Positions 14,545 to 58,557 of a stretch of 64,000 bases of DNA are shown here, in pieces. This DNA is from Candidatus Saccharimonadota bacterium (GTDB taxonomy: Bacteria; Patescibacteriota; Saccharimonadia; Saccharimonadales; Saccharimonadaceae), in the NCBI GenBank assembly GCA_017506895.1, contig JAFWBV010000007.1, positions 1 through 64,000 of the forward strand. Direction: 5' to 3'. How positions within the stretch are numbered: position 1 is the first letter of the stretch; every line of letters starts with the position of its first letter. The translations under genes were made by a program, and so were the position numbers. The notes under the pieces are model-generated. The model was not told the DNA's origin, searched no databases, and saw nothing but the letters and a program-made list of their open reading frames with translations.

Positions 14545-15447
14545 ATGGAAACACCAATGAAACATTTTCTCAAAGCATTCATCATACCATTATTTGTTAC
14601 CCCCATTCTATTATGCTCTTTTCTCGTTACTCCTTCCGTTTCAGCAATAATAACTGATTGCGATAGTCTGAAAGAAAAAGTATTAATAGATGGTGCTACC
14701 CCTGAAGAACGCGATACCTATTTCGCCGAATGTGACGGTTCTCAAAATACCAAGCCAAATTCAGCATCCGGCACCACCCCGTCTTCGGCATCATCTAGCT
14801 TCGTTAGCAGTAGCTGCGGCGATTTTCTTGGCATGCCATCCTGGAATTGCAACGTAACCATTAACACTGGCGACGACGGCGAAAGCCTCAAATCAGGCAT
14901 TTGGACTATCGCTGCCAATATCGCAACCGACATCACAGTCATCGCTGCATATCTAGTTGTTTGCTACATTATATATGGTGGATATCTATATATGTTTTCT
15001 AACGGTGATACCGGCAAAGTTGCCACCGGCAAAAAAGCCATCCATCAAGCCCTACTAGGTTTAGCTATTGTAATCTCAGCAAATGTTATTTTAAACGGAA
15101 TTCGCATCGGTTTAGGCGCCGCCAATCTCTCAGAGAACTGTATTGCTAGTGGCGGATGTGTCGAACCCGGCCCAATGGTTACTAGCGCGCTCCAATGGGT
15201 AATTGGTATTGCTGGCGTTATCTCTGCCATCTTTATCGTTATGAGTGGAACTTCCTACATTATGTCTCGTGGCGATCCCAATAAAATACAAACAGCCAAA
15301 CAAACCATTACTTACGCCTTGATCGGTCTCGCTATTGTCGCCCTAGCCGAACTCATCGTAACTTTCGCATCAAATATCATTAATAACGCCAACGATACGG
15401 CATATATTAATCAAAACACTATCTCAAAGGAGTATCATGAAAACTAA
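14545..15447 (+). CDS. VirB2-like pilin protein with two pilin modules
   Basis: 300 aa. It has a signal peptide (about 1-37), then a Ser/Thr-rich Cys-containing stretch, then two copies of the two-helix VirB2/TrbC-like module: one around YIIYGGYLYMFSNGDTGKV and one around MSGTSYIMSRGDPNKI, each followed by a second helix. The basic loop with GD..K between two helices matches the other VirB2-like genes here. I read it as a tandem fusion of two pilin modules. An ATG at 14557 is the alternative start. It overlaps the next pilin gene by 11 nt; AAGGAG near the end serves that gene. Confidence 0.75.
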   Translation: METPMKHFLKAFIIPLFVTPILLCSFLVTPSVSAIITDCDSLKEKVLIDGATPEERDTYFAECDGSQNTKPNSASGTTPSSASSSFVSSSCGDFLGMPSWNCNVTINTGDDGESLKSGIWTIAANIATDITVIAAYLVVCYIIYGGYLYMFSNGDTGKVATGKKAIHQALLGLAIVISANVILNGIRIGLGAANLSENCIASGGCVEPGPMVTSALQWVIGIAGVISAIFIVMSGTSYIMSRGDPNKIQTAKQTITYALIGLAIVALAELIVTFASNIINNANDTAYINQNTISKEYHEN

Positions 15448-15874
15448 AATCATCACAATTATATTAGCAATTTGCTTTGCTTTTCTCCCAACTACATCTG
15501 TGCTAGCGACGCAGTGTTCGAGCCAAGTTTGTAGTGGTGACTACCCAGAAAGTGTTAAAAGCGCCTGTGGCTGCACGTCTGCCGGAGAAGATAAGCTCCC
15601 TGCAGTTATTACTTCAATTCTTGAAGCCTTCATTGGTGTCGCCGGCCTTGTTGCCGTAATTTTCATCATCATCGGTGGGTACAACTACATGACTTCGTCT
15701 GGCGATACCGCTAAAATTGAAAAAGCCAAAAAAACCATTCTTTACGCCGTCATAGGCTTAGTAGTCTGCGTCTTAGCATTCGCCATAGTCAACTGGGCTA
15801 TTTCTACTTTAGACCAAGGGCCTAAGATTGCTAATATTATCAATGGCTTTCCCATCGCTACAACTATCTCCTAG
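15437..15874 (+). CDS. VirB2-like pilin, secreted
   Basis: 145 aa. A signal peptide ending near VLA (about residue 24) is followed by a Cys-rich mature N-terminus (5 Cys in ~30 residues), then two membrane helices joined by the basic loop YMTSSGDTAKIEKAKK. This is the TrbC/VirB2 pilin layout; VirB2 forms the T4SS pilus. AAGGAG lies 5 nt before the ATG. The overlap with the upstream gene indicates an operon. Confidence 0.8.
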   Translation: MKTKIITIILAICFAFLPTTSVLATQCSSQVCSGDYPESVKSACGCTSAGEDKLPAVITSILEAFIGVAGLVAVIFIIIGGYNYMTSSGDTAKIEKAKKTILYAVIGLVVCVLAFAIVNWAISTLDQGPKIANIINGFPIATTIS

Positions 15875-15957
15875 ACAAATTCGTGCATTGCAAAATATCT
15901 ATTGATTTTTTCTAATAATCGTTATAAAATATTATTAAATTAACAAAAGGACAAAGA

Positions 15958-16269
15958 ATGAAAGAAATAATTACAAAGTTAGCAGAAAGCGTCACTGTAG
16001 ATAAATTGCCAGACAAAGTAGGTGATCAAGGCAATACATTGGTTAATAATGTTACTGCAATCATTAATGCAGTAATTGGCGTGCTAGGCCTAGTTTGTGT
16101 AGTTGTTATGATTATCGGTGGTGTTAACTATATGACTTCATCTGGTGATGCCGCCAAAGTTAAAAAAGCCAAAGACACCATTCTTTATGGTCTCATTGGT
16201 CTTGTAGTCTGCGTCCTTGCTTTCGCCCTTGTCAACTTTGTTATTGTAAACATCCTTGGCGGTAATTAA
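15958..16269 (+). CDS. VirB2-like pilin, no cleavable signal peptide
   Basis: 103 aa. Two helices flank YMTSSGDAAKVKKAKD, nearly the same as in the preceding pilin, but the first ~30 residues are amphipathic and polar and show no signal peptide. An AAAGGA ribosome-binding site precedes the ATG, and a TATAAA-like -10 lies in the 83-nt gap, so it may be transcribed on its own. A strong terminator begins at its stop codon. Confidence 0.8.
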   Translation: MKEIITKLAESVTVDKLPDKVGDQGNTLVNNVTAIINAVIGVLGLVCVVVMIIGGVNYMTSSGDAAKVKKAKDTILYGLIGLVVCVLAFALVNFVIVNILGGN

Positions 16270-16885: not shown

Positions 16886-17593
16886 ATGCCAAATATTGTA
16901 AAAACTACAACGTTCCCTAGCCTTCTGGATGTCATTGCGCCACACTACTGTAGGGGTTGCGGTCATATAGGTAAACCAATTTGTGATCGTTGTGAAAAAA
17001 ACATTCTTCGTTCAAATCATAATCTTTGCCCATTATGTAAACAAAAAATTAAGTCCGGTATTTGCTCACATTGCAAGAATAATAAATCCATTTCACTTCC
17101 CCCATCCTTTATCATTGGTGAACGTTCCGGCCTTTTAAATGATATAATTCATGATTACAAGTATAATTCTGTTCGAGCTTACGCAAAACCTTTAGCTAAA
17201 ATGCTCGACTATAGATTGCCCAAAATTGATGGCACAGTCAATATCGTCCCCCTCCCAACTATTAATTCTCACATCCGTAGCCGCGGCTTAGACCACACTC
17301 TCCTTATTGCCAAAAAACTCGCGCATCTTCACCCATCATATAAGGTCACCAAACTTCTTTTACGTAATGCTAATACCATCCAAGTTGGCTCAAATCACGA
17401 TCAAAGAATTGCACAAGCCGCCAACGCTTACAGGATTAATCCAAAAATCAATATCAACAAAAACGCCACCTATATTCTTTTAGATGACGTTTGGACTACC
17501 GGCGCTAGCCTACAATCAGCAGTCAAAATACTAAAAGCAAACGGCGTCGAAAAAATTATCTTAGCAATTCTATCCCTGAGTATTTTGAATTAG
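16886..17593 (+). CDS. comF: ComF family phosphoribosyltransferase-like protein
   Basis: 235 aa. The N-terminus has a zinc-ribbon-like set of CxxC motifs (CRGC, CDRC, CPLC, CSHC at about 18-75). The C-terminal half is a type I PRTase fold with the PRPP-binding motif LLDDVWTTGAS near the end. ComF proteins are needed for single-stranded DNA import during natural transformation in several bacteria, though the biochemistry is unsettled. Its position amid T4SS pilin genes fits a DNA-uptake role (inference). Its last 24 nt overlap the convergent pilin gene. Confidence 0.9.
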   Translation: MPNIVKTTTFPSLLDVIAPHYCRGCGHIGKPICDRCEKNILRSNHNLCPLCKQKIKSGICSHCKNNKSISLPPSFIIGERSGLLNDIIHDYKYNSVRAYAKPLAKMLDYRLPKIDGTVNIVPLPTINSHIRSRGLDHTLLIAKKLAHLHPSYKVTKLLLRNANTIQVGSNHDQRIAQAANAYRINPKININKNATYILLDDVWTTGASLQSAVKILKANGVEKIILAILSLSILN

Positions 17594-17995
17594 AAGAGAT
17601 GTTTCGTTCGTTGTCGTCGGATTCTTTGAAGATGGCAAAGCAGAAATTACAAAGTTTACAATCGCAAAAGCCAAGAAAGCTATCACTAAACCAATAATCG
17701 CATAAAGAACAGTGTTCTTAGCATCAGTTACTTTCTTTGAATCACCACCCGATACTACGTATTTAATACCACCAATAATCAACATAATTACGGCGATAAT
17801 ACCAACAATATAAAGAATCACATTCGTTACTTGTTTAAAAACACCGGTATCTCCGAACAAATCAGCCGGACAACCGTCACATCTAGCAGCCTCTGCGCCC
17901 TCTTGTAAAGTCAAAGCCGAAACCGACCCAGCGCCTAAAACGATAATAATCCCCACTATTAATATTGGTAATAATAATTTTACAATCCTTTTCAT
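17570..17995 (-). CDS. VirB2-like pilin, secreted
   Basis: 141 aa. A signal peptide ending in SVSA (about residue 27) is followed by a short Cys-containing segment (CDGC) and two helices around the loop KYVVSGGDSKKVTDAKN. It is a clear paralog of the pilins at 15437 and 15958 but on the opposite strand, so the pilin family is dispersed over 3.5 kb. The C-terminus is a polar Thr/Asn tail. Confidence 0.8.
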   Translation of the reverse strand: MKRIVKLLLPILIVGIIIVLGAGSVSALTLQEGAEAARCDGCPADLFGDTGVFKQVTNVILYIVGIIAVIMLIIGGIKYVVSGGDSKKVTDAKNTVLYAIIGLVIAFLAFAIVNFVISALPSSKNPTTTNETSLLIQNTQG

Positions 17996-18053: not shown

Positions 18054-18146
18054 GGAGGGTTACCCAAGTGGTTGAAGGGGACTCATTGCTAACGAGTTAG
18101 TCTGGGGCAACCTGGAGCGGGAGTTCGAATCTCCCACCCTCCGCCA
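18054..18146 (+). tRNA. tRNA-Ser(GCT)
   Basis: Acceptor GGAGGGT/ACCCTCC, a long serine-type variable arm, anticodon loop TTGCTAA (anticodon GCT), T-arm CGGGAG/CTCCCG-like, discriminator G and an encoded CCA. Its last 18 nt are repeated three more times downstream. Confidence 0.95.
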
Positions 18147-18428
18147 AAAGAGACCCAGAAGAGCTTTGCTCTTGTGGGGCTGTTTTGAAGAAGGGGCAGG
18201 TGATTATTTATCTCCCACCCTCCGCCAAAAGAGACCCAAAAGAGCTTTGCTCTTGTGGGGCTGTTTTGAAGAAGGGGCAGGTGATTATTTATCTCCCACC
18301 CTCCGCCAAAAGAGACCCAGAAGAGCTTTGCTCTTGTGGGGCTGTTTTGAAGAAGGGGCAGGTGATTATTTATCTCCCACCCTCCGCCAAAAGAGACCCA
18401 AAAGAGCTTTGCTCTTGTGGGGATGTTT
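18129..18428 (+). repeat. 81-bp tandem repeats seeded by the tRNA-Ser(GCT) 3' end
   Basis: The segment ATCTCCCACCCTCCGCCA (tRNA T-loop to CCA) and the following hairpin block recur at 18129, 18210, 18291 and 18372 with an exact 81-nt period. The last copy diverges after about 56 nt (GTGGGGA). Each unit has the tRNA end, an AAGAGC-TTT-GCTCTT hairpin inside a longer imperfect stem, a short T-run and a spacer GAAGAAGGGGCAGG. Copies 1 and 3 read CCCAGAAG and copies 2 and 4 read CCCAAAAG, so a 162-bp two-unit block was duplicated. As 81 is a multiple of 3 the array stays open in two frames, but I do not call it coding. Nothing else occupies this gap except the next gene's promoter. Confidence 0.95.
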
Positions 18429-18477
18429 TATCTCATTAATCCTAGTTTTTATAATTCATTTGTGTTATAATATCCTT

Positions 18478-18945
18478 ATGGCAAAGAAAGTTAGTGAAGT
18501 TAGTTGGCAAGCAGAAGAGTATATCGTCCGTGATCACGATGCGTGGTGGTATATTGGGCTATTTTTAGTCACTGCAGGTCTCTGCGTTCTTGCCGTCTTC
18601 CTTCAATGGTGGACATTTCTTGTTTTAGTCATCCTAAGCGCTATTACTATTCTAGTTATGATTTTTCGTCCACCACGCAAAATCAACTACACGCTCACTG
18701 ACAAAGGTCTAACCGAAGACAAAATCGAACATCCTTACGAAGTTTTCAAAGCCTTCGGAATTCTCAAAGAAGGCGCACATTTTTCAGCAGTTTTAATTCC
18801 TAAAAAACGTTTCTCATTAAGCACGAAAGTATATTTCCCTGAAACCAACGGTGAACAAATCGTTGATATCTTAGGCAGTCATCTCCCAATGGAAGAAGTA
18901 AAGCTAGACTTTCTCGACAAAATAGTAAACTTCTTGCGCATTTAA
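18478..18945 (+). CDS. hypothetical two-helix membrane protein
   Basis: 155 aa from ATG 18478 (MAKKVSEVSWQAEEYIV). Two adjacent membrane helices (about 27-65) are followed by a PPRKINYTLTDKGL segment and a soluble beta-rich domain, resembling small bacterial proteins with a PH-like fold after a hairpin of helices. The exact family is not recognised. TATAAT (18466-18471) ends 6 nt before the ATG and no ribosome-binding site exists, so a leaderless message is expected. A longer frame back into the tRNA repeats would start upstream of this promoter and is rejected. Confidence 0.7.
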   Translation: MAKKVSEVSWQAEEYIVRDHDAWWYIGLFLVTAGLCVLAVFLQWWTFLVLVILSAITILVMIFRPPRKINYTLTDKGLTEDKIEHPYEVFKAFGILKEGAHFSAVLIPKKRFSLSTKVYFPETNGEQIVDILGSHLPMEEVKLDFLDKIVNFLRI

Positions 18946-44341: not shown

Positions 44342-46090
44342 TTATTCATTAGCTTTTACCAGCATCCACTTCTGATTATCGCCACCATGATTATCAAATA
44401 TCACAATATTGCCAGATGGCGCCGCGTCTAATACTCTACTAGAACATCTAGATATAATTTGGTAATAACCATTCTCGTCTTCTTCAAATAACCAATCCTG
44501 GTTACAATTTGAATGAAGCGGAAAAACATTCACCGGAGTAGAATTAGTAGTCCCAGCACCTTTAACATCAAATGCTGAACCCGTTTCTGCATTAATAATA
44601 TTATAGAAACCGTCAGTTGAATCGTATTTTATTTCAAATATTTGGTTTTCTGCATCGGTAGTTTTTCTTTGATAAGTTTGTAATTTTCCAGTTGCCACTA
44701 AGCCACCTCGAATATCGATTACCTTATCCGAATATTGTTTAGGGTTTAAGAAATACTTACCATCACTAATATTATGATCGTTTTCAACCTTTACCAGCAT
44801 CCACTTCTGATTATCTCCATCATGATTATCAAATATTACTATATTGCCAGATGGCGCCGCGTCTAATACTCTACTAGAACATCTAGATATAATTTGGTAA
44901 TAACCATTCTCGTCTTCTTCAAATAACCAATCCTGGTTACAATTTGAATGAAGCGGAAAAACGTTCACCGGAGTAGAATTAACAGTCCCAGCACCCTTAA
45001 CATCAAATGCTGAACCCGTTTCTGCATTAATAATATTATAGAAACCGTCAGTTGAATCGTATTTTATTTCAAATATTTGGTTTTCTGCATCGGTAGTTTT
45101 TCTTTGATAAGTCTGTAATCCGCCCGAAGTTACCAACCCACCTTTTATATCAATAACTTTATCAGAATACACTTTAGGATATAGACGATATGTACCATCA
45201 TCAATCGGTTGCTCGAATTCGCTCTCCGCCTCGTTGACTACTTCTTTTATAACGCCATCAGTTATCCCCCCAAACCAATCTTCAAAATACAAGTAAAAGT
45301 TTCTATTCCCATAAGCTCCACAATAAGCCGTTCCATACCCCGCAGCCAGTGCACCCTCATTTGGTTGGTATGGAGTATAACGATACAAAGCAGACGTAGC
45401 CAGCGATCTAATATTTACTATCGAACCGCCACACTCAGCATTTGGGTTATATTGCACATAGTTGTTTCCCAATGGATAATTCGTCCATCCGCCCGTTAAG
45501 ACAGTATGAAATAGCGCCGCCGCTTTTCGTACCTGATTTTTAAATCCATAGTACTGCGACGAACAAGGTGCCGTGTCTGGACAACCGTACCCAGTTGCCT
45601 TTCTATAATCACCGTTATTTGGAATCGGATCAGTAATTAGTGATGTTTCTTTTTGTAATAACACAATTAATACCTGCGGATTAATCTGATAATCTTGCGC
45701 CGCTTGCCAAATAATATGTGCTGCGGTTTCCCCAGAACCAATCACTTCGCCATCACCAAATTTTTCCTCTGATAAACAAACAAAATGTCCATCTTCAAAA
45801 TGCCAAGTATAATTTGGATTAGCTGACAAAGCTAAATAATAATTATAATTAGTATTCGGGCAACTATTCTTCTTGGTCAAAAATGCCTGAATCTCTTCTT
45901 CTGACATTGAATTATAATTACCCATCTGATAATCTGATATAATATAGCCCGGGTCAAATTTTTCTAACGAAGCTGCTAAAACATTTCCATTATTTATTTT
46001 GTGTCTCTGTATTAAGAACGTAAATAAAAACACCGCTACAAATACGCCTAATGCCATATACCATATTCTTTTACTTCTACGCCTTCTCAT
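44342..46090 (-). CDS. secreted lysozyme-like protein with two ricin-B lectin domains
   Basis: 582 aa. N-terminal anchor or signal (about 9-28), then a domain (about 45-285) with HIIWQAAQDYQINPQVLIVL and QKETSLITDP, resembling lysozyme-fold 'hemagglutinin' proteins of Actinobacteria. Two ricin-type beta-trefoil domains follow (about 295-435 and 440-580) with QDWLFEEDENGYYQI and the NQKWMLVK end (QxW motifs). They should bind sugar polymers, and the protein may remodel or cling to peptidoglycan, of self or host. The lectin domains are almost identical in DNA. Confidence 0.75.
   Translation of the reverse strand: MRRRRSKRIWYMALGVFVAVFLFTFLIQRHKINNGNVLAASLEKFDPGYIISDYQMGNYNSMSEEEIQAFLTKKNSCPNTNYNYYLALSANPNYTWHFEDGHFVCLSEEKFGDGEVIGSGETAAHIIWQAAQDYQINPQVLIVLLQKETSLITDPIPNNGDYRKATGYGCPDTAPCSSQYYGFKNQVRKAAALFHTVLTGGWTNYPLGNNYVQYNPNAECGGSIVNIRSLATSALYRYTPYQPNEGALAAGYGTAYCGAYGNRNFYLYFEDWFGGITDGVIKEVVNEAESEFEQPIDDGTYRLYPKVYSDKVIDIKGGLVTSGGLQTYQRKTTDAENQIFEIKYDSTDGFYNIINAETGSAFDVKGAGTVNSTPVNVFPLHSNCNQDWLFEEDENGYYQIISRCSSRVLDAAPSGNIVIFDNHDGDNQKWMLVKVENDHNISDGKYFLNPKQYSDKVIDIRGGLVATGKLQTYQRKTTDAENQIFEIKYDSTDGFYNIINAETGSAFDVKGAGTTNSTPVNVFPLHSNCNQDWLFEEDENGYYQIISRCSSRVLDAAPSGNIVIFDNHGGDNQKWMLVKANE
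44355..45224 (-). repeat. tandem 435-bp repeat encoding the two ricin domains
   Basis: Blocks starting at 44355 and 44790 (offset 435 bp, 145 codons) are nearly identical over their first ~350 bp and diverge after that. This indicates recent duplication or ongoing gene conversion; copy number may vary between strains. Confidence 0.9.
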
Positions 46091-58385: not shown

Positions 58386-58475
58386 GGAAAGGTGGCCGAG
58401 TGGTTGAAGGCGCACGCTTGGAAAGCGTGTGACGGGGCAACCCGTTCGCAAGTTCGAATCTTGTCCTTTCCGCCA
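58386..58475 (+). tRNA. tRNA-Ser(GGA)
   Basis: Acceptor GGAAAGG/CCTTTCC, anticodon loop TTGGAAA (GGA), a long variable arm, discriminator G and encoded CCA. A TAGAAT -10 (58369-58374) lies 11 nt before the mature 5' end. Its 3' end is repeated 80 nt downstream. Confidence 0.95.
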
Positions 58476-58557
58476 AATTAGCTAAAATAGAACTTGTTCT
58501 ATTTTAGACAATTTGAAGGAATGGACCCTAGATTAATATCTTATCCTTTCCACCAAG
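58458..58557 (+). repeat. 80-bp spaced copy of the tRNA-Ser(GGA) 3' end
   Basis: ATCTTGTCCTTTCCGCCA (58458-58475) recurs as ATCTTATCCTTTCCACCA (58538-58555) with 2 mismatches in 18, offset exactly 80 nt. Between them is a perfect hairpin CTAAAATAGAA / TTCTATTTTAG (about 58482-58507). The layout equals one unit of the tRNA-Ser(GCT) array. The 58476-58566 gap holds nothing else. Confidence 0.85.

Follow-up and report, generated by a model that had tools for sequence, protein, structure and literature searches.

A tandem array behind tRNA-Ser(GCT) as one instance of an apparently undescribed family of hairpin cassettes at tRNA 3' ends in Saccharibacteria

What are the repeats that follow the tRNA-Ser(GCT) gene in the window, the 64,000-nucleotide stretch of DNA analysed here, and do they belong to this locus alone? 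The gene (18054..18146, + strand; ARAGORN, Rfam RF00005) encodes its own CCA, and its last 17 nt (18130-18146, + strand) are the source of the tail copies: the 17-mer TCTCCCACCCTCCGCCA occurs in the tRNA and again starting at 18211, 18292 and 18373. Exact comparison divides the array into four units, all on the + strand. Unit 1 (18147..18227, 81 nt) comprises a spacer hairpin (18147-18186) and a minihelix (18187-18227) that includes the tail copy (18211-18227), as delimited with the help of the fold and covariation of homologous units. Unit 2 (18228..18308, 81 nt; tail copy 18292-18308) differs from it at one site (G to A), unit 3 (18309..18389, 81 nt; tail copy 18373-18389) is identical to unit 1, and unit 4 (18390..18429) is truncated, retaining the spacer hairpin alone (first 40 nt) and diverging from unit position 41 onward, without minihelix or tail. 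Tandem Repeats Finder (TRF) reports a period of 81 with 98% matches over 18129-18429. An earlier note on this DNA had described an array of 81-nt period seeded from the tRNA 3' end, and both TRF and exact comparison confirm it. Its count of four copies of the last 18 nt holds for the tails (four, including the tRNA's own) and for the spacer hairpins (four), but the copied segment is 17 nt long and there are three complete extra units. The alternation it saw between units (1=3, 2=4) is real but consists of a single site, unit position 12 (G, A, G, A), and unit 4 carries one additional change, C to A. Duplication of a 162-bp two-unit block, as the note proposed, was a reasonable guess and would be the simplest source of the alternation, thinly supported by the one alternating site.

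Tandem repeats can be mis-resolved in short-read metagenome assemblies, and the copy number of 3 + 0.5 is as read from the assemblies. Even so, an assembly artefact, or an accident of one strain at one locus, is scarcely credible as an explanation. A second assembly, JAFWMY010000013.1 (L114/L098), which is independent but of the same species and not an independent species, equals the window across 8 kb, with the whole array and its alternation included; this identity argues against the assembly error that the earlier note wished to see checked, and the same phenomenon recurs at many loci in many genomes. Judged from the two matching sequences, the array is not a single-contig assembly artefact. 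The contig itself (C26, L114, 44.9 kb; an exact match to the window in the 8 kb that were compared) is binned with another species in the public genome G123, and this placement is probably a binning error. The Ser(GCT) 3' flank was also compared among relatives, as suggested at the time: the 16-nt tail has an exact match in 125 genomes of the genus, many of which contain at least two copies of it, and the copies track the local variant, CTCCCACCC or CTCCCTCCC.

A 259-aa open reading frame with a TTG start (18166-18945, + strand) crosses the array and shares its frame with the next gene, whose ATG is at 18480. The open frame through the 81-nt units is probably due to chance, since unit lengths elsewhere lack 3-nt periodicity. 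A tpr-like coding array was likewise rejected, as 128 unit lengths have no such periodicity (48/39/41) and no shared coding constraint. Several small membrane- or pilin-like reading frames flank the locus (17570-17995, - strand; 14545-16269, + strand) and have similar C-terminal halves (IIGGIKYVVSGGDSKKVTDAKNTVLYAIIGLVI); this gene type adjoins tRNA-Ser(GCT) in relatives too. Downstream of tRNA-Ser(GCT) at loci L055 and L113, a further short hairpin family (AACTAGTGTTATTTTTATCTTGGAAGTCGGAAAGT...) stands in tandem behind the tRNA flank. Elsewhere in the window, TRF finds a 435-bp direct tandem repeat at 44355-45200 (1.9 copies, 91% match).

The Ser(GCT) array is one instance of a general system behind many tRNAs of the genome and the genus, a system that the earlier note had missed; the note's interpretation is supported in part. 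Within the window, tRNA-Ser(GGA) (58386..58475, + strand; tRNA search) is followed by a single unit of the same type, 80 nt long (58476..58555, + strand), whose tail copy has 2 mismatches in 17. We defined an own-tail copy as a match to the last 17 nt of a tRNA, with at most 3 mismatches, within 250 bp downstream. Among the 42 tRNA genes read in the window's genome (G000), 10 are followed by an own-tail copy and 0 are preceded by one; the ten are Ser(GCT, GGA, TGA), Arg(TCG), Glu(CTC, TTC), Asn(GTT), Gln(CTG), Tyr(GTA) and Thr(CGT). A relative (G010) gave 11 of 43, again with 0 upstream, and a genome of another family (G031) 0 of 30. When the tails of other tRNAs were used as a control for the 42 G000 tRNAs, every match was the own-tail copy itself; the upstream control and this one reject a chance origin of the tail copies. 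As a positive control, the same script recovered 17-nt tail copies at +161, +339 and +517 of tyrT in E. coli MG1655, a spacing of 178 bp, so the tyrT parallel drawn in the earlier note was apt. Across everything read, 105 loci carry 126 units in total; the tRNAs ahead of them have more than 25 different anticodons, and the tail copy is perfect over 17 nt in 93 of the 126. The source genomes belong to 'Candidatus Saccharibacteria', chiefly from the ruminant gut. Presence is patchy, at about a quarter of the tRNAs and at different tRNAs in each genome.

A unit starts at the first base after the tRNA CCA and ends at the CCA of its own tail copy. Unit size is 52-193 nt, with a few longer and with no coding capacity, and the spacers (35-175 nt) are conserved hairpins. 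Three main types, A, B and C, were recognised. Type A, which includes the Ser(GCT) and Ser(GGA) units of the window and also occurs at Ser(TGA), consists of a long spacer hairpin and a minihelix joined by a conserved TGAAGG linker. Within the minihelix the tail pairs with a 5' strand that looks like acceptor plus T-stem; changes on both sides are seen at 13 of the 20 pairs of its consensus. In type B a short hairpin or terminator, often followed by an A-rich stretch, precedes a second hairpin. The 3' strand of this second hairpin is the beginning of the tail, usually from C56 of the T-loop, and its 5' arm pairs much better with the local tail (3.8 of 5 positions) than with shuffled tails (2.6). 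Type C, about 150-190 nt long, runs in the order terminator, arm, GAACC-GTA-GGTTC hairpin (built from the tRNA's own T-arm sequence), C core, another hairpin, tail. The core reads GTAGGAG-N-CGA[hairpin]GAG-N'-CGACGC, and its N-N' positions form canonical pairs in 61 of 96 cases, against 32 by shuffling (maximum 46 in 10,000). Some C units, like type A, also mimic the 5' acceptor strand, and many B and C units carry a canonical terminator ahead of the tail hairpin. A simple transposon would not be expected to have arms that match the local tail; the match suggests templating at the locus or selection on the RNA. C(GNA)G loops dominate in P2 and are common in P4; they recall stable DNA mini-hairpins, but similar loops occur in terminators of the same clade, and as a sign of DNA-type rather than RNA-type hairpins they are no more than a hint. 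Across the window Rfam returned only tRNA matches at the gathering threshold, and at 11 loci with units no unit scored above the gathering score or was covered convincingly at E up to 1, so a known RNA family was rejected. In tail units behind Ser tRNAs at L024, L091 and L104, a possible C-like core is inverted (GCGTCGTC as read along the tRNA strand).

The conserved cores can be followed independently of the tails. The B hairpin pattern TCGGACCTN{1,3}GGTGCGA contains no tRNA sequence and was searched without any tail, yet at 27 of the 30 loci checked the hairpin stands 17-120 nt downstream of a tRNA, with ten amino acids represented, and it is usually followed by 20-21 of the 21 bases C56-A76 of the upstream tRNA. 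The C core was found in 76 of the 174 genomes of the genus, with a reversed control of 0. In the genus of the window, 19 of 30 inspected C core loci lie behind a same-strand tRNA, and about one-third of the C cores in g1 have no complete tRNA nearby. In a second genus (g24) the count is 20 of 21, and the 21st lies at the edge of a contig, where a tRNA tail can still be seen. Across a 393-genome sample of the order, B and C cores were absent from other genera except for one B match in unrelated sequence; the conserved B and C cores are limited to two genera of one family, and B to one genus. Among IMG/VR viral contigs the 10 C core matches are all due to chance, lacking the hairpin or flanking stem, and phage carriage of the C core was rejected on this ground; 76 B-core matches, which come from a 15-base pattern, are expected to be largely chance. 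One orphan B unit (L178; G146 C2:32586) has a tRNA-like tail, CGAGTCCTGTAGGATCCATCA, with no tRNA gene within 1.5 kb. At L232, L235, L250 and L251, in genus relatives, the C core is distant from tRNAs and forms the tip of a long inverted repeat specific to that locus; L235 and L251 share a larger conserved body. Such sites may offer the same folded element another habitat. The idea that C cores outside tRNAs generally cap longer inverted repeats specific to their target was rejected, the case being strong for about 4 of 30 loci.

The main rival to the reading as a mobile cassette is that of a function as RNA, with which it is compatible. Units would be co-transcribed with the tRNA and kept as mimics of the tRNA 3' module that are processed by tRNA enzymes, perhaps with RNase P acting at the 5' side of the minihelix and RNase Z-like cleavage after CCA, or they would serve as a terminator or processing stop. 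The covarying minihelix with its NCCA suggests RNA function. A tRNA-like 3' module ends every unit, the 5' acceptor strand is mimicked in type A and some C units, the stems covary, the orientation matches that of the tRNA in 20 of the 21 g24 cores, 33 of the 126 units have a T-rich stretch after the tail copy, and 3' processing would yield boundaries running from CCA to CCA. Against this stand the patchy and genome-specific set of tRNAs, the free change of unit type at the same tRNA, the decay of distal tails, the C cores of g1 that lie away from complete tRNAs, and the strong intrinsic terminator that precedes many B and C units, from which poor transcription would be expected. Nor does the Ser(GCT) array contain a clear terminator: its spacer hairpin is followed only by TGTTTT, with no longer T-run, which leaves the several terminator hairpins imagined in the earlier note weak at this locus. 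Taken as a whole, processing detail included, we consider the functional reading rather unlikely.

The same note had offered integrase action at the tRNA 3' end. In this explanation the copies would be attL/attR remnants of lost phages or islands, and the stretch that was copied, from C56 or the T-stem to CCA, is indeed typical of integrase identity blocks. A tyrosine recombinase (PF00589) is present in some relatives (one in G010, three in G123), but none was found in G000 or G006, both of which carry units, although at 92% completeness of G000 this absence is not absolute. Moreover, neither cargo nor island lies between the copies, the spacers are conserved hairpins and not eroded cargo, the C core matches in viral contigs are chance, and a single integrase would not use about 25 different tRNA ends. 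Integrase scars are accordingly a very improbable origin. As general movers of the units, tyrosine integrase and Y1 transposase were both rejected, the latter (PF01797) being above cut-off in only 1 of 11 genomes and not found in G000.

Pairs of related loci offer snapshots of gain. L055 and L113 present an empty and a filled Ser(GCT) site with otherwise alignable flanks, and L094 differs from the 96% identical L093 by exactly one 66-nt unit adjoining the tRNA, a unit whose sequence is no copy of the neighbouring one. Units also stand behind tRNAs other than their own, in three cases in all. The clearest is in G426, where a complete C unit with a Glu(CTC) tail stands behind tRNA-Lys(CTT). Over 190 nt it shares 96% identity with the unit that follows Glu(CTC) in G438; behind Glu(CTC) of G426 itself is a truncated unit that matches only the first 103 nt of the Lys(CTT) unit. 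G169 and G041 have Gln(TTG)-tailed units behind Gln(CTG), and their Gln(TTG) genes have no unit. All three non-cognate cases have boundaries from CCA to CCA, and no non-cognate copy was seen for the type A array of the window. Since units are sometimes found behind the wrong tRNA, the cassettes can evidently move; in the Lys/Glu case, though, it could be the tRNA that was replaced while the unit stayed in place.

In another account, replication slippage and fold-back template switching at tRNA 3' ends repeatedly make both the tail copy and its complementary arm, the array being a plain tandem duplication and no mobile cassette being involved. Arms that fit the local tail, sequence after the distal tail that often resembles a unit start, and near-identical tandem units are what local accidents would leave, and E. 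coli tyrT is an example of tandem tail repeats arising in other bacteria. However, the same B hairpin and C core recur behind many different tRNAs and in many genomes, the unit gained at L094 is not a neighbour copy, and complete units stand behind other tRNAs. We therefore regard purely local accidents as quite unlikely.

We instead favour, at somewhat better than even confidence, the reading of the Ser(GCT) array as a tandem-expanded member of a family of small, non-coding, self-contained hairpin cassettes, mobile or copy-prone, that insert behind tRNA CCA ends. Unit boundaries, genome-wide occurrence, covarying structure, clean gain and tails of other tRNAs are the observations on which it builds. 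The home of the cassettes is directly behind tRNA genes in the window's genus, with type C also in a second genus of the family. The cassette body folds in such a way that the tail copy supplies the 3' strand of a minihelix like the T-arm or acceptor of a tRNA. To spread, a cassette would be joined between the CCA and the next base. The join would come about where both share ...CCA, by recombination or by template switching during replication, and the cassette would probably pass through a folded form, either single-stranded DNA or RNA; crossing over or template switching at common CACCA/GCCA ends would produce the observed boundaries. The tRNA would stay intact because each cassette arrives with a tail copy, and many units also supply a terminator. 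Once there, direct repeats would allow tandem gain and loss, leading to the 81 x 3 + 40 nt seen at Ser(GCT). Such spread would need no cellular function, and the moving enzyme may be the host's own replication and repair. A broader proposition, which we put forward tentatively as possible rather than probable, is that of a distinct class of minimal mobile elements in two Saccharibacteria genera: folded, gene-less cassettes of 50-190 nt with a home at the CCA boundary, a tRNA 3' module as terminus, no element-encoded enzyme (host replication and repair or a trans-acting enzyme would serve) and arrays formed by tandem gain.

Among known systems, the E. coli tyrT repeat is the closest to the tRNA-tail cassettes. 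The 178-bp repeats of tyrT/tyrTV (rttR/tpr) are likewise downstream direct repeats, each with an exact tRNA 3' end. They concern one tRNA family at one locus, with a longer unit that has an annotated rttR RNA and tpr ORF, is transcribed (rtT/rttR RNA) and may encode a peptide, whereas the cassettes are folded units of about 50-190 nt at more than 25 tRNA species, with shared cores, non-cognate tails and no 3-nt length periodicity. Tyrosine-integrase elements also duplicate the tRNA 3' end (T-loop or T-stem to CCA) and leave the tRNA intact; the cassettes differ in that no integrase was found in G000 and in the lack of cargo, with conserved hairpin spacers and many tRNA sequences used. REP/BIME (RAYT), Rickettsia palindromic elements and mitochondrial double-hairpin elements resemble the cassettes in being small, non-coding, folded and dispersed, with covarying stems, and REP elements begin with GTAG, as does the C core. 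Unlike REP/RAYT and IS200/IS605, the cassettes are bound to tRNA 3' ends and carry a copy of them, and a Y1 transposase was not found in most genomes. Integron cassettes, which go with an integron integrase and with attC sites that have conserved R boxes, share array growth at one fixed anchor and a folded, site-like hairpin at the unit 3' end, but the present cassettes have no genes, no IntI-type tyrosine recombinase in G000 or G006, and unit ends that vary with the tRNA and do not follow an attC consensus. Casposons insert at tRNA 3' ends and duplicate the tRNA end (PMC4046053). They encode a Cas1-family integrase and a PolB-type polymerase within the element, in contrast to the cassettes, which are mostly shorter than 200 nt and have no genes.

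The tRNA-tail cassettes are apparently an undescribed family. We found no description of them in the open-access literature, which is weak evidence, most subscription papers being outside its scope; to that extent the earlier note, which knew of no such array in this group, is borne out. In some very small Saccharibacteria genomes about a quarter of the tRNA genes carry units behind them. The cassettes provide many natural replicates for studying how so short a sequence, a few dozen bases, can pass with precision from one tRNA gene to another. They are also relevant to the existence of insertion hot spots at certain tRNA 3' flanks and to the unexplained repeats of E. coli tyrT. They will mislead annotation and short-read assembly near tRNA genes. 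If transcribed, they would give studies of tRNA processing a large collection of natural mimics of the tRNA 3' module.
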